Source of the DNA: an uncultured Flavobacteriaceae bacterium
GTDB taxonomy: Bacteria; Bacteroidota; Bacteroidia; Flavobacteriales; Flavobacteriaceae
Reading direction: 5' to 3'
Assembly: GCA_947494565.1 (NCBI GenBank)
Contig: CANLVG010000001.1
Location: forward strand, 434,001 to 498,000
Length of the DNA: 64,000 bases
Shown here in pieces: positions 33,031 through 59,983 of this stretch. The notes beneath the pieces are model-generated. The model saw nothing but the letters and a program-made list of their open reading frames with translations. It was not told the DNA's origin and made no database searches. The translations under genes were made by a program, and so were the position numbers. Position 1 is the first letter of the stretch, and each line of letters opens with the position of its first letter.

Positions 33031-36000
33031 CTACCCTTTTTGTCCGCCACGGGCCAGTAGTGCACTCAATATCGGAATAACCACTCCGATGCCCCCCAAC
33101 GCCCCGACAAGTGCTTCAAAATCCTTCAGGAATCCGGGTTCCCCAAGAAAAATAAAAACGAGTATGGTTAAGATGATCAAGTAAAAAATAACGCGCATAG
33201 TTCCCCAAGAACCTTCACCTCGGTTCTTATATTCCAATCGCAAAGCTTCATTCATGGAGACCGAGGAAGAAATAAAGTTTTTAAAACTGCGATTAAAGAT
33301 GGCCGGTCGGTCGTTCCATATGATAAGCCCTTTTTTCATTAACGAGAACAGTGAATTCCCGTTTTTTATATTCAGGAATCCATCTTTGGCCAGATCGTAG
33401 AGCATGTAGCGCTCACGGGTAGGTAGCGAATTCCAAATGTCGGTATAATACCCGTGACTTAAGTTTTGCGTATGCATCACCATGCGCTGTTCATCTATTT
33501 GAAAGCTATCATCCTCAGTCTTACCCAAGGTTATTAAGTTTTTGGCATAGATTACCGGAGCAAGGGTGGGAAGGAATTTGCCAAACCCCAATTCATCGGC
33601 AACACATTGTTTTATGGCTTCGTCCGGTTCGTCAGTGATCATTATTTTCACTTTTTCCTTTCCATCGGTAATGCCTATGAGCACTTGAGGGAATGCACTT
33701 AGAATGTTTCGCCACGCATTGAAATCACTCACTAGTTTGATATTCAATTCTTCCGATTCAGATTGTGAATTTTGGTAAAAACCCAAAATCTGACTGGGGT
33801 ATACCTCGGAACACAGCACCACTGGTTTACCTAAAGAAATCAAAAATGAAATCAAGCGTAACTTGATTCGGTTGGCTTCATATGACATCAGGTGGTGCTC
33901 TAGATTCTCAATAATGAAAGCGCATTCGTCGTGTAGTTGCTGTTCAAGGGATAGTATGGGGTTTTCTTCCTTCTGGCTTTCGACCTGAGAGCTCTTCTTT
34001 CTAACTGGCTCGGTATTGGTGACCGGATACTTGCGTAGCTTTTCTACAATTGCTGAGATATCAGTATCTTCCCGTAAATCGTCTAACCGCATCATCGACA
34101 GAATAAGCGGCTCGTCACAACCAGCAGCACGCAACACTTCTTTCGCAAAGGTGGTTTTCCCCGAGAACGGAAGACCGGTAAGCAGCAATCCTGAATTGGC
34201 ATCTCTTGTCGCCAATACCTTAGCAAATTTGGGGATGTATTCCTTATTGCCCTTGATATCAAAATCATTGGGTTTTAAATTCATAAAACGAAATCCGATA
34301 AAGCGATCGATGAAAAAGGAAATCAAGGCGAAAAGCAAGGCCAAAATACCAAGTAGTCCGATTCCTTTCAGCACCAGCATTAACCAAGGCACCCCTGCAA
34401 TGCCCTTCTCTTTAGGGCTGTTAGGTGACTGTGTTGTGAGTAGTTTTGTGGGGCGAGTGCCATAATCCATTTGAAACATGGTGCTATCTTCCATTTCTTT
34501 GCTCCTCCATGTTTCATCAAGGGATTTTCGATAGATCATGGCTTGGAAATCCCTGATCTTTTCATCATAAATCGGTCGCGTGCTCCAAAGAAGTCTTCGA
34601 AAGCTGTCAGACTCATAATTTTCCTCTTCATCTAAAGGATCCATGGGAACACGGGATACAGTACCCAAATATTGTCCTTCGTTCAGGTGATACTCATAAA
34701 CACTTTGGAATTCACCTTCATGGTATTCCGGTGCGGGAAGCTTTTCCCTTAGGCGATTTTCTTTTTGAACAAACTCTGATGACATATGAAATTGGTCAGC
34801 CTTTGTCCAAATCAAATCGTTGATTTCCCTGGCCTTTTTAAAGAATAAGGTGGTGGGAAATACAGAAGCCAATAATAGCCAACAAAATAAAAATAGAATG
34901 TAGTTCTTTGGAAAGGGTAAATTCATTCTTTTTTTGACAAATCCCACCCAAGCATCGGTGGCATTGTGCTCTTTGATTTTTTGTAATCGGAAAAGATAGA
35001 TGGTGCATACCACTTGTACCGGAATAACCACTAGAAGTATCCAAAATAAACCACTTCCGAGACGTATCAATAATACATCGAGTAAGAAAATAGCCAACAA
35101 CACCAAGGCGTCACTCATCCGCAAACCCAATTTATTCGCTTTTGTTCTTGGCTTCAGCGAGTAGTACACTAGCAGGTAAGACCATGAAATGAATAAAAAA
35201 CTAAGGATAATGGAGGAAGAGGGTAGAAAACTTACAAACATACTAAGTGGAACGGCAATTGTAAGCACTGCCAAAAACAGTGTGGAAAGCAGAATATAAC
35301 TCTTTTCGCTGTCCTCTTTTGGAGTCAGGAACTCAAACGGAAATACCTTGAACTTATAGAGACCTGATCCCGTGTTCTTCTTGAGTACCGAAAAAAGGGC
35401 GACCAGACCTATGAGCAATAGCACAAAGAATATGGCCATTCCAGTAATGGACAATACCTCGGAAACCCGAATCCGTAATAGGCTTAAATCATAGAAGGTG
35501 ATTACGCTCAGGTTAGTGCCCTCAATAGGGGCTACATAGAATATTTGACTTTCATCGCGATACTTCACGACCCCTTGTGCTGCCACTCTACCATTAATCG
35601 CAGCCCTTACATCACCGAATTTCCGGCTTACAGCAAAAAAGTTCTCTAAAGTGGAACGTCCGATCCGTGAATGAAACCAGACTTCACCCGTATTATCGAT
35701 AACCGCGTACTGGTAGCCAAATGGCATAATTGGATTGTGAACGGAACTGAGTTGTGCGCTGGCCACCTTGAAATATCTTTGATCCTTGTGGTCGCGCAAA
35801 ATATAAACGGCCTCTTCCTTTTGGTCCTCTATGGAAACCACGGGCCGCATTACATAGGGTATACCATCGTTGGTTTTCCAGACGTTGTGGTCTTTTCTGA
35901 AGTCCTCGTAATAAATTCGTTCTTTTAAATTGATTCTTGAAAGAGAATCCTTTGGGCGCCGGATACCGTTTAAGGTATAGCATACAAGTCCATTTTCATA

Positions 36001-37104
36001 CATTTTAGAAACAAACTTAAAAATGTACTGGAGCGAATCAGAGGCGGCACCTTCCAGAGGTTTGAACTTGTCCTTACACATACAATAATCGGTATGGCAT
36101 TCTTTTGGCTCGTAACCAGCGATGTCAAGTCGATACAGGCGTTGAACGGCCTTCTCATTCTCTGTCGTGAAATCGGTTACCAGTTCTTCCGCAAAGTGCC
36201 TTAACTGATTGGGAATGGTATGCTCTCGGTTATCGAAATAATCGAGTAGTGATAGAAATATAGCGACCATAATGGGAGCTCCGACCAAAATGGATGTTCC
36301 CGCCATGATGACATCCTTACTACTCAAGCGCTCGTCTTCCGCAATGAATACCATTTTAAAAAAAGGGAGTCCGAAAAGACAGAGTAACAAGAAGGTCACC
36401 AGAAGAGTAATTATCCAAGAATTAAGTTTTCGGGTACTGGTCTTATACTTATCCGCCCCTATCAAGCCAATAAGAGCAATATCGATTTCAAGGCCTTTTG
36501 AGTCGATACTGCCTCTAAATTGATATTCACGGCCAAAAAGTTGGTATCTCGAATCTTCTTTTGGTATTGCGCTCGATACACCGATATTGAGCTGATTGTC
36601 TTTTAGAAGATCATCGATTTCCTTATGAAATGACCCTGGCAAAGAACTGAGGTATTTTGCTGGTTTGTCAGCTGTGCCACCATTGCTCGTAAACCTTATG
36701 ATGTAGGCATCGAATTCATTGTCGTTCGGCAATGTGGTATTTACACTGGTAAGGATTTTCCAAATTTCCGTTTGTGCTTTACCAACCTCGCTTTCTTTTT
36801 CATGAATAGTATCCTTCAGAGATACCGGAGCATCTATTTGCCCATCTCCAGGATTTGCCAAGTTTTCACCTTTTTTCGAGTTGTAGGTTTGGATATCGTT
36901 GGTAAACCGTTTTGAAATGATATCGAAATAAGAGTCAAGGGTCTGCAGTTTGTACGCCTTGAAATTTTGTTCGTTTTGTTTGATCCGGTACCAATAACTT
37001 GTCGCCAAAACCGCTATGATCAGCAATGCGATGGTCGTAAGACCAAGAAGCCTTTTATTCGAACCAAGTGGTTTGCGTATTGCGGTCAGTATATTCATTG
37101 CCAT
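33031..37104 (-). CDS. giant membrane protein: Cache-like sensor plus cytoplasmic P-loop (STAND/AAA-like) ATPase
   Basis: 1357 residues; no named family recognised. Visible order: TM 20-38; extracytoplasmic region 39-228; TM 229-250 and 266-288; a second extracytoplasmic region 289-550 that reads like a double-Cache sensor (NDGIPYVMRPVVSIEDQKEE, GYQYAVIDNTGEVWFHSR); about six TM between 551 and 753; a third extracytoplasmic region 754-904; TM 905-931; a cytoplasmic ATPase with Walker A GLPFSGKT (977-984) and a Walker B-like CAFIIENLEHH (1061-1071); a winged-helix-like stretch 1220-1285; and two terminal TM (1304-1320, 1330-1350). The helix count gives a consistent topology with the ATPase inside. 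Ligand and output are unknown. It appears monocistronic; the upstream 400 bp contains a gene remnant. The Cache and STAND labels are inferences by eye. Confidence 0.85.
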   Translation of the reverse strand: MAMNILTAIRKPLGSNKRLLGLTTIALLIIAVLATSYWYRIKQNEQNFKAYKLQTLDSYFDIISKRFTNDIQTYNSKKGENLANPGDGQIDAPVSLKDTIHEKESEVGKAQTEIWKILTSVNTTLPNDNEFDAYIIRFTSNGGTADKPAKYLSSLPGSFHKEIDDLLKDNQLNIGVSSAIPKEDSRYQLFGREYQFRGSIDSKGLEIDIALIGLIGADKYKTSTRKLNSWIITLLVTFLLLCLFGLPFFKMVFIAEDERLSSKDVIMAGTSILVGAPIMVAIFLSLLDYFDNREHTIPNQLRHFAEELVTDFTTENEKAVQRLYRLDIAGYEPKECHTDYCMCKDKFKPLEGAASDSLQYIFKFVSKMYENGLVCYTLNGIRRPKDSLSRINLKERIYYEDFRKDHNVWKTNDGIPYVMRPVVSIEDQKEEAVYILRDHKDQRYFKVASAQLSSVHNPIMPFGYQYAVIDNTGEVWFHSRIGRSTLENFFAVSRKFGDVRAAINGRVAAQGVVKYRDESQIFYVAPIEGTNLSVITFYDLSLLRIRVSEVLSITGMAIFFVLLLIGLVALFSVLKKNTGSGLYKFKVFPFEFLTPKEDSEKSYILLSTLFLAVLTIAVPLSMFVSFLPSSSIILSFLFISWSYLLVYYSLKPRTKANKLGLRMSDALVLLAIFLLDVLLIRLGSGLFWILLVVIPVQVVCTIYLFRLQKIKEHNATDAWVGFVKKRMNLPFPKNYILFLFCWLLLASVFPTTLFFKKAREINDLIWTKADQFHMSSEFVQKENRLREKLPAPEYHEGEFQSVYEYHLNEGQYLGTVSRVPMDPLDEEENYESDSFRRLLWSTRPIYDEKIRDFQAMIYRKSLDETWRSKEMEDSTMFQMDYGTRPTKLLTTQSPNSPKEKGIAGVPWLMLVLKGIGLLGILALLFALISFFIDRFIGFRFMNLKPNDFDIKGNKEYIPKFAKVLATRDANSGLLLTGLPFSGKTTFAKEVLRAAGCDEPLILSMMRLDDLREDTDISAIVEKLRKYPVTNTEPVRKKSSQVESQKEENPILSLEQQLHDECAFIIENLEHHLMSYEANRIKLRLISFLISLGKPVVLCSEVYPSQILGFYQNSQSESEELNIKLVSDFNAWRNILSAFPQVLIGITDGKEKVKIMITDEPDEAIKQCVADELGFGKFLPTLAPVIYAKNLITLGKTEDDSFQIDEQRMVMHTQNLSHGYYTDIWNSLPTRERYMLYDLAKDGFLNIKNGNSLFSLMKKGLIIWNDRPAIFNRSFKNFISSSVSMNEALRLEYKNRGEGSWGTMRVIFYLIILTILVFIFLGEPGFLKDFEALVGALGGIGVVIPILSALLARGGQKG

Positions 37105-37504: not shown

Positions 37505-39133
37505 TTATGGGATATCTGAAATAGTGGGGGCATTCTTTCTCCCTATACGGTCCAGCTCTTTTGCAATAGCCCTAGCTTCTATGATCACCTCATCTGGATA
37601 TTCATTGACTTCTAATATTTTAATGGCGTTCCCGTGCTTTAGTTTCCCTTTTTTCAGTTTATAATCGAAACCGACTTTTTTATCGTTTACAACTTCGCTA
37701 AAATGGTAAAGCTCATATTCCTCTGAGAGAAGGTCGGTCAATTCAATATCGTGTGTGGATACAAAAACCAAGTTGTTGTTCTTTGACAATAAGGAAAGTA
37801 CCGCTTTGCCGGCTGCAATGCGCTCAACGGTATTCGTTCCTTTAAAAATTTCATCAAGAAGAAATAAATTCGATTGGCTGTTAGCGCCTTCAGAGATCAT
37901 TTCTTTAATTCTAAAGACTTCTTCCGAATAATAGCTTTTGTCATTCAATAGATCATCGCTTATTCTTATCGCCGAAAATACCCTAGTGAATGGAATGGTC
38001 AAAGATTTTGCAAAACAAGTATTTATGGTCAAGCCTGTAATCACGTTCGACCCGATGGTACGTATAAAGGAAGTCTTACCGGACATATTTGAACCGGTAA
38101 GGAGAATTGATTTATTTGAGACCGAAATGTCATTGGTTACACAACTCGGTAGTAAAGGATGATAGAGGCTCTCAGCGTTAAGTTGATTACTATTTTGGCT
38201 AATTTTAGGGATAGAGAACGAGTCGAGTCCCCTTCGTAAAGAGGCGATCGAAATTAAGGTATCTACTTCTCCAACAAATGAAAATACCTGCTCGACTTCC
38301 CTGCGTTTCGTGTTCAGCCTTTTTAAAACCCCGAACAATAATAGTGGCTCTAAAAGAAAAAGGGTCTTTATTAATTCGAAAGTTGCCCAAAACAGTACTG
38401 CCAGATCTCCTTGCAATTTTCCTTCGAGCTGAAAGAATAGCATTCGATTTCTTACTTGATTTAGTAATTCAATCGGCTTTTCAAGATTGGGATCAATCTT
38501 TTTTAAAAGTGCCTTCTTATGTAGATTGAAGGCCACTCGATTTAAGTTTAATAACTGAGGAATCGCACTTAAATACTTGAATAAGTTCTTTTTGTTCCAA
38601 AAATGAATTCCAAGGTTCACTACAAAGACGCCAATAAGAGCAAGAATATATTGTGGGTAAAAATAGACCAGTAGCGACAAGAGTAGCGCGCTAACCGATA
38701 ATATTTTGATGATAAAAAACCATTTCGGAGGATTTAAATGCGCTTCTTGAAAGAGGGGCGAAACATCGTAAGCAGCGTAATTATCGAGTTCTTTGAGTTG
38801 GCTCTGGATCGCAATTCTTAAGTCGGTATCCTCCGAAATCACTTTGATGATTTCTTCGTTTAAATCGATTCGGGTACGGTCAGTGGAAATAACTCTCAGC
38901 TTGTTATAAAGGTATTGCTGGCCGACTTTTGAAACTGTTCGATCCATATAGGCGAACAAATCTTCAAAGTCCAGATCAGCACATGTTTTATCAGATAGAA
39001 CTTGAAAACAACCAGAGTTGTCTTTATTCTTGAAGTAGTGCCGGATTTTGGTGAAATCGAATGAGTTTTCCTTAATCCTCCCAAATGAAGCTTTTAATCT
39101 TTCACTCTCTTTTTTCTTCCGATTAAATAGCAT
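37505..39133 (-). CDS. MutS-like ATPase with internal membrane helices
   Basis: 542 residues. The C-terminal MutS ATPase domain has Walker A LLTGSNMSGKTS (345-356), Walker B FLLDEIFKGTN (424-434) and the signature STHDIEL. The middle has the helical MutS core/lever-like region, but hydrophobic stretches at about 138-178 (FFIIKILSVSALLLSLLVYF) and about 245-270 suggest membrane insertion. There is no N-terminal mismatch-recognition domain (no F-x-E motif), so it is not a mismatch-repair MutS; MutS paralogs of this type are common in Bacteroidota and of unknown function. It is alone, with a gene remnant at its 3' side. Confidence 0.88.
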   Translation of the reverse strand: MLFNRKKKESERLKASFGRIKENSFDFTKIRHYFKNKDNSGCFQVLSDKTCADLDFEDLFAYMDRTVSKVGQQYLYNKLRVISTDRTRIDLNEEIIKVISEDTDLRIAIQSQLKELDNYAAYDVSPLFQEAHLNPPKWFFIIKILSVSALLLSLLVYFYPQYILALIGVFVVNLGIHFWNKKNLFKYLSAIPQLLNLNRVAFNLHKKALLKKIDPNLEKPIELLNQVRNRMLFFQLEGKLQGDLAVLFWATFELIKTLFLLEPLLLFGVLKRLNTKRREVEQVFSFVGEVDTLISIASLRRGLDSFSIPKISQNSNQLNAESLYHPLLPSCVTNDISVSNKSILLTGSNMSGKTSFIRTIGSNVITGLTINTCFAKSLTIPFTRVFSAIRISDDLLNDKSYYSEEVFRIKEMISEGANSQSNLFLLDEIFKGTNTVERIAAGKAVLSLLSKNNNLVFVSTHDIELTDLLSEEYELYHFSEVVNDKKVGFDYKLKKGKLKHGNAIKILEVNEYPDEVIIEARAIAKELDRIGRKNAPTISDIP

Positions 39134-59895: not shown

Positions 59896-59898
59896 CAG

Positions 59899-59983
59899 CG
59901 GAGGAAGAGGGATTCGAACCCCCGGAGGTGTGACCCTCAACAGTTTTCAAGACTGCCGCATTCGACCACTCTGCCATTCCTCC
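59899..59983 (-). tRNA. tRNA-Ser (anticodon TGA)
   Basis: 85 nt. The acceptor GGAGGAA pairs with TTCCTCC, G is the discriminator and CCA is not encoded. The D arm GAGTGGTCGAATGC, the anticodon loop CTTGAAA with TGA, a long variable arm, and the T arm GGGGGTTCGAATCCC are all readable. Reads UCA and related Ser codons. Own promoter and terminator, so single-gene unit. Confidence 0.95.

Follow-up and report, generated by a model that had tools for sequence, protein, structure and literature searches.

What is the function of a bacterial membrane protein that joins a Cache-like sensor outside the cell to a module resembling STAND proteins (signal transduction ATPases with numerous domains) inside it? 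This question is raised by a gene found in a 64,000-nucleotide stretch of DNA, hereafter referred to as the window, from an uncultured Flavobacteriaceae bacterium (GenBank assembly GCA_947494565.1, contig CANLVG010000001.1, positions 434,001 to 498,000). The open reading frame (ORF) 33031–37104 on the reverse strand starts with ATG, comprises 1357 codons without an internal stop and is the sole match in its own 5.39-Mb genome, that is, a single-copy gene. The receptor that it encodes is real, coherent and unusual in its layout, and its function we infer. Judging from sequence comparison, the observed layout exceeds chance, as homologs cover most of the length in many genera. The reading that we propose, and consider about equally likely to be right or wrong, is a receptor with twelve transmembrane (TM) segments, an extracytoplasmic double-Cache (dCache) domain and a cytoplasmic pseudo-STAND module acting by protein contacts, with hydrolases as clients in some genomes. 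Computation gave the fold of each end and showed that the nucleotide site is lost; the ligand, the direction of signalling and the contacts with clients we infer.

At the threshold E ≤ 0.001, matches were found in 2 of 58 related genomes and in 6 of 394 genomes drawn from the phylum (3 of 59 and 7 of 395 with the own genome included), and in none of the 13 congeners, several of which have incomplete assemblies. The genome collection was also scanned with patterns that lay in the winged helix, which yielded 46 loci. The family is present in Flavobacteriaceae (Zobellia, Pseudozobellia, Arenibacter, Pricia, Robertkochia), in Sphingobacteriaceae (Mucilaginibacter, Pedobacter, Hufsiella), and also in Dyadobacter, Chitinophagaceae, a Cyclobacteriaceae and the balneolote Gracilimonas. 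By these matches it is patchy in Bacteroidota and Balneolota and homologous over most of its length; intact members have 1187–1639 amino acids. An alignment of 49 rows was built that omits split or partial copies (L034, L037, L069) and the loci L006, L007, L019 and L021, which hold the same genes as L038, L030, L043 and L072, respectively. Alignments of 43 rows further omit L061 (nearly identical to L042), L020 and L022–L025. The L037 copy is cut by a contig end. The receptor gene lies in pieces in L034 (9974–14157) and L069 (9323–13354), perhaps due to decay or sequencing errors. On the phylogenetic tree the window protein is the sister to the Zobellia–Pricia clade (SH-aLRT 97), the deep order being unsure with nine long-branch rows in the tree.

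The hydropathy profile of the window protein has twelve hydrophobic segments: residues 19–37, 231–249, 265–283, 556–574, 609–627 and 632–650 (TM1 to TM6), and residues 664–682, 686–704, 736–754, 914–932, 1303–1321 and 1332–1350 (TM7 to TM12). The topology derived from them places residues 40–229, 289–555 and 756–909 outside and residues 933–1302 inside. The family-averaged profile also has twelve segments in the same places; in single profiles of eight relatives, 8 to 12 segments are seen at the same threshold. The window protein was assigned to no family at threshold in Pfam, NCBIfam and PADLOC, and a sequence search of PDB, done with the single protein and with two profiles, gave nothing below E 0.1.

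The sensor was identified by structure prediction. The AlphaFold2 model of residues 1–610, built from 43 aligned sequences, has a predicted local distance difference test score (pLDDT) of 78.9 and a predicted TM-score (pTM) of 0.78. When it was compared to PDB using Foldseek, the top matches were ligand-binding domains of the dCache type, among them McpH, Mlp24, Mlp37, TlpC, DctB and sensor kinases; the best E was 1.3e-6, and 91 matches had E ≤ 0.001. The Pfam domain dCache_1 (PF02743) is matched by 24 of the 43 members at E ≤ 0.01, though not by the window protein. Model and topology together place the double-Cache fold outside, flanked by TM segments. R396 and S424 occur in every row of the 49-row alignment and Y398 in nearly every one; these residues presumably correspond to a motif of dCache_1. 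What the receptor perceives is probably a small extracellular molecule. A preliminary description, made by a model from the sequence alone, had proposed three extracytoplasmic regions, about twelve TM segments with a P-loop-like domain inside, and a double-Cache sensor; the two hydropathy profiles agree with the former, and the Foldseek and Pfam matches bear out the latter.

An extracytoplasmic double-Cache domain between two TM segments is shared with dCache_1 chemoreceptors and sensor kinases (McpH, Mlp24, DctB, TlpC), whereas the output differs: it is STAND-like, and no kinase, cyclase or methyl-accepting output was found. The title of PMC4822843 calls Cache domains the largest superfamily of extracellular sensors in prokaryotes, and the outputs named in a table legend of that paper are methyl-accepting chemotaxis proteins, histidine kinases, c-di-GMP enzymes, phosphatases, cyclases, Ser/Thr kinases, transcription factors and ion channels, with no NTPase in this list. 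The layout had been called unfamiliar in the preliminary description, and a literature search covering titles and the beginnings of abstracts likewise yielded no description of a Cache or dCache fusion with STAND, NTPase, AAA+ or patatin domains. A Cache receptor with a degenerate STAND-like output would add an output type to the Cache sensors, and would show that a STAND-like fold can act as a scaffold in signalling with a defunct nucleotide site.

The cytoplasmic part was modelled within residues 590–1357 (pLDDT 77.5, pTM 0.73). In the model strands alternate with helices; a helical part follows, and then helices with a hairpin at about 1216–1283. The best Foldseek matches are DnaA (E 4.1e-4, probability 1.00), the human origin recognition complex (ORC; 6.4e-4), other AAA+ proteins and the plant nucleotide-binding leucine-rich repeat receptor (NLR) RPP1 (2.6e-3). 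The window member has a sub-threshold match to Pfam AAA_18; nSTAND1, nSTAND3 and AAA are each matched in one of the 43 members at E ≤ 0.01. Comparisons of the NTPase part by hhalign to nSTAND3, one nSTAND1, Lon, RecA and a RadA-like protein were all weak, nSTAND3 being the highest, and in the nSTAND1 genome search 1 of 17 genomes was above the cut-off. As the profile matches are weak, the term AAA+/STAND-like rests on predicted structure, which suggests an AAA+/STAND-like domain followed by a winged helix. The predicted arrangement, with helices and then a winged helix behind a P-loop-type alpha/beta domain, resembles that of RPP1, DnaA and ORC; the receptor family differs from STAND and AAA+ proteins in being embedded in the membrane, in its degenerate Walker A motif (48 of 49 rows) and in weak sequence-profile support.

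The nucleotide site has been lost in nearly the whole family. A G-x4-G-K-[S/T] motif at the place of Walker A is present in 1 of 49 rows, that of the window protein; in 25 rows GK is followed by a residue other than S or T, and 23 rows have no GK, very divergent rows being possibly misaligned. The automatic tally was 2/25/22, the second match, in L052, being a chance occurrence elsewhere in that protein, whose aligned motif has no GK. At least five changes between the three classes are needed on the tree. Walker A is degenerate as well in all nine relatives that whole-protein searches had revealed, and in distant members N mostly replaces the acid at the end of the Walker B-like strand. The winged helix, in turn, has the highest identity of nine parts of the protein (82% in near and 40% in distant relatives); among the nine relatives from the whole-protein search its mean identity is 41% versus 14–27% in other parts. 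With a degenerate Walker A in 48 of 49 members, a working NTPase is not supported as the family mechanism, and erosion of the nucleotide site along with retention of the winged helix makes a pseudo-NTPase switch or scaffold most likely for the family. Such a pattern would fit a module conserved for its shape and its contacts. The motifs GLPFSGKT and CAFIIENLE reported in the preliminary description were located in the translated ORF at residues 977–984 and 1061–1069. Its STAND/AAA-like ATPase persists as a fold with a winged helix in the model, and not as a working NTPase common to the family. The winged helix itself is predicted at about 1216–1283, and in the outer loop 754–904 a sub-threshold match to Pfam GMT-wHTH (774–812, E 0.071) is the sole sign of one. 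For residues 950–1290 no named family reached threshold in Pfam, NCBIfam or PADLOC, and KAP and ABC were not among the matches; the KAP profile matched neither the window protein (Pfam, E ≤ 10) nor the 43 members (E ≤ 0.01).

Under the proposed pseudo-STAND reading, a small periplasmic ligand would bind the Cache domain, the TM helices would relay the change inward, and the cytoplasmic module, tied back to the membrane by the C-terminal TM hairpin, would alter its shape or oligomer state and so recruit, hold or release partner proteins. The window member itself may nevertheless bind nucleotide. In a minority of genomes the likely clients would be adjacent cytoplasmic hydrolases, namely phospholipases, proteases and wall hydrolases.

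Candidate clients were sought among neighbouring genes, whose families were assigned by Pfam on representatives and extended to further members by phmmer. The next gene on the same strand encodes a hydrolase (patatin, Tle1, subtilase-caspase or M10) in 15 of 51 relative loci. All five patatins detected in the 52 loci (window included) are same-strand next genes, with gaps of −25 to 121 bases. This corresponds to an enrichment among 103 next-gene ORFs compared to 701 others (Fisher P 3e-5; 0.002 when collapsed to three lineages). Ser and Asp, which presumably have the dyad roles of patatins, are kept in all five. The patatins of three relatives, all three that were tested, match PADLOC models named 'Effector, Phospholipase' (8e-26, 1.4e-47 and 4.9e-68), which we take to be the CapV group of CBASS, the cyclic oligonucleotide-based antiphage signalling systems. 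They would then resemble the CapV-type phospholipase effectors of CBASS; the difference is that the constant partner in the receptor loci is the Cache receptor, and no cyclase model matched any of the nine neighbours scanned in four patatin loci, where CBASS has a CD-NTase cyclase beside the effector. A Tle1-type phospholipase is the next gene in L025 (Pfam) and L056 (phmmer), a subtilase-caspase-DUF7379 protein in L064 (Pfam) with a homolog in L066, a CHAP/peptidoglycan-binding protein being nearby, and an M10 metalloprotease is the same-strand next gene in six loci (one by Pfam). Other next genes encode a peroxidase (L058) and an eCIS_core protein (L067). By a crude measure, a hydrophobic N-terminus is absent in 21 of 22 such enzymes versus 2 of 9 exported controls, so the enzymes are probably cytoplasmic; the one with a hydrophobic N-terminus has an overlong start. 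In Dyadobacter (L064 3554–9082) a single 1842-residue protein adjoining the receptor combines subtilase, caspase and DUF7379. A separate family of about 400 residues with a hydrophobic N-terminus lies four genes from the receptor in L043 (4553–5797), L056, L063 and L067, and its L043 member has no Pfam match.

More tentatively, and with rather low confidence, we suggest that a pseudo-STAND switch reads the Cache signal from outside and activates killer-type enzymes of the cytoplasm, namely CBASS-like patatins, Tle1-type phospholipases, subtilase-caspases and metalloproteases. Such proteins would form a class of transmembrane receptors absent from the papers searched, with an NLR-like logic at the membrane and an extracellular small molecule, not a phage component, as the trigger. 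For the role in stress or defence surmised in the preliminary description, the hydrolases encoded beside some of the relatives are indirect evidence only. Should these phospholipases and proteases indeed be clients, ordinary environmental sensing would be linked to enzyme types of anti-phage suicide and bacterial antagonism. Among the closest described systems are the MoxR-vWA ternary conflict systems, in which inactive STANDs occur according to passages of PMC7159879 and PMC8195603; their iSTAND and iSTAND2 are likewise inactive STAND-like modules in a receptor-like component, with proteases among the linked enzymes. As described there, these systems have MoxR and vWA partners; none was seen by eye in the receptor neighbour tables, although no search aimed at MoxR or vWA was made. 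The word 'Cache' is absent from the texts of both papers.

The same data can be read in other ways. In a true ligand-gated STAND NTPase, ATP binding and hydrolysis in residues 955–1150 would drive an NLR-like oligomeric switch under the membrane. The intact GLPFSGKT and the acid in the Walker B-like strand of the window member, the NLR among the Foldseek matches and the GK kept in 25 members speak for it; we consider it unlikely, since no other aligned member has GK[S/T] at this place, 23 have no GK, and the window protein is placed among relatives without GKT on the tree. A membrane-bound one-component regulator, in which the winged helix would bind DNA or RNA and the Cache signal would control transcription, would account for the winged helix being the most conserved part and for DnaA and ORC being the best fold matches, and passages of PMC8195603 propose inactive STAND domains as nucleic-acid receptors. 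However, the winged helix is held between TM10 and TM11, and no DNA-binding Pfam family reaches threshold in the window protein. Moreover, it comes after the NTPase, which is the order of STAND proteins, and in these the winged helix belongs to the switch. We regard this regulator as quite unlikely.

Other membrane machinery, with the TM4–TM9 bundle as a transporter or enzyme and the cytoplasmic domain as a KAP- or ABC-like motor or regulator, is very unlikely. Six TM segments do lie between the Cache and cytoplasmic domains, and one of 43 relatives has a weak Pfam transporter match (CitMHS, E 0.001), but the bundle is poorly conserved, and KAP and ABC families are found neither in the Pfam and NCBIfam scans nor among the 50 Foldseek matches listed. 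Finally, the receptor could belong to a programme of extracellular contractile injection systems (eCIS), sensing when to load or release the particle. The Pseudozobellia locus has eCIS-type genes (sheath homologs in L030) and Pvc16_N is present in that genome (G024:C19), an eCIS_core protein adjoins the receptor in L067, and Pvc16_N was found in 7 of 9 carriers versus 15 of 61 non-carriers (P 0.003), non-carriers being genomes negative in the related-genome or phylum searches, where candidates from the phylum draw were scored in part and a few carriers may have been missed. Among genomes of at least 4.2 Mb the ratio is 6 of 8 versus 11 of 25 (P 0.22), and Pvc16_N is present in only 23 of 45 carrier genomes, four of which are also among the nine. 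The signal having vanished with size matching and in the 45 carriers, the eCIS link was dropped, an obligate one being largely refuted; we consider it highly improbable.

Several observations weigh against the pseudo-STAND receptor with hydrolase clients. The cytoplasmic model has only two Foldseek matches at E ≤ 0.001, with TM-scores of about 0.2 over the whole model, and the hhalign match to nSTAND3 is weak (probability 2.2%) and covers only the end of the winged helix. The conservation of the winged helix is inflated, as the scan that gave 46 loci used patterns from it; the check on nine relatives answers this bias in part, by sequence comparison. The window member's own Walker A is intact, and may be functional or a lone convergent residue. 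In 36 of 51 relative loci the next gene is none of these hydrolases, and many neighbours there look housekeeping by eye. Next-gene patatins served as search seeds, so remote patatins elsewhere were possibly missed. The window locus, too, has no patatin, Tle1, subtilase-caspase or M10 hydrolase as the next gene, so a client in this genome would be encoded elsewhere. The coordinates of the receptor features are given in the table.

Table. Features of the receptor gene, in window coordinates, from the N- to the C-terminus of the protein
Feature	Position	Strand	Basis
Coding sequence, 1357-residue twelve-TM Cache/STAND-like receptor	33031..37104	-	ORF and homologs
TM1 (residues 19–37)	36994..37050	-	hydropathy
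First extracytoplasmic domain (residues 40–229), mixed helix and strand	36418..36987	-	topology, model
TM2–TM3 (residues 231–283)	36256..36414	-	hydropathy
Predicted double-Cache (dCache_1-type) domain (residues 289–555)	35440..36240	-	Foldseek; Pfam in relatives
TM4–TM9 bundle (residues 556–754)	34843..35439	-	hydropathy, model
Third extracytoplasmic domain (residues 756–909), least conserved	34378..34839	-	topology, alignment
TM10 (residues 914–932)	34309..34365	-	hydropathy
Predicted AAA+/STAND-like domain (residues 955–1150)	33655..34242	-	model, Foldseek
Walker A GLPFSGKT (residues 977–984), intact only in the window protein among 49 aligned members; degenerate in the 48 others	34153..34176	-	alignment
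Walker B-like CAFIIENLE (residues 1061–1069)	33898..33924	-	alignment
Predicted winged helix (residues 1216–1283), best conserved part	33256..33459	-	model, alignment
C-terminal TM hairpin TM11–TM12 (residues 1303–1350)	33055..33198	-	hydropathy

No partner of the receptor is shown in the genome of the window. A search of this genome for an S8 partner, run without a positive control, gave no match. Contig 15 of the same genome (L074 8714–10846 and 16681–17238) carries a trypsin-domain ORF and, about 6 kb away, a Pvc16_N gene; the ORF matches part of a Zobellia trypsin-S8 protein (34% over query residues 102–327).

The neighbours of the receptor gene in the window are ordinary genes, encoding a TauE permease, a nitroreductase, a DegT aminotransferase, a MutS-like ATPase and an Lrp regulator. 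In three congeners (G002, G007 and G011) homology to the window extends through the nitroreductase and TauE genes and stops at about 32885, just before the receptor gene, which therefore lies at the edge of a region that they lack; in their next 14–15 kb only fragments of at most 58 codons resemble the window beyond this point. The region 33000–59983 has no counterpart beside TauE in these congeners, and a tRNA-Ser gene at 59898–59983 is a possible island boundary. Upstream of the receptor gene, at 37505–39133, a 542-residue protein with MutS domain V is encoded, for which the 13 congeners have no more than distant paralogs (at most 29% identity).

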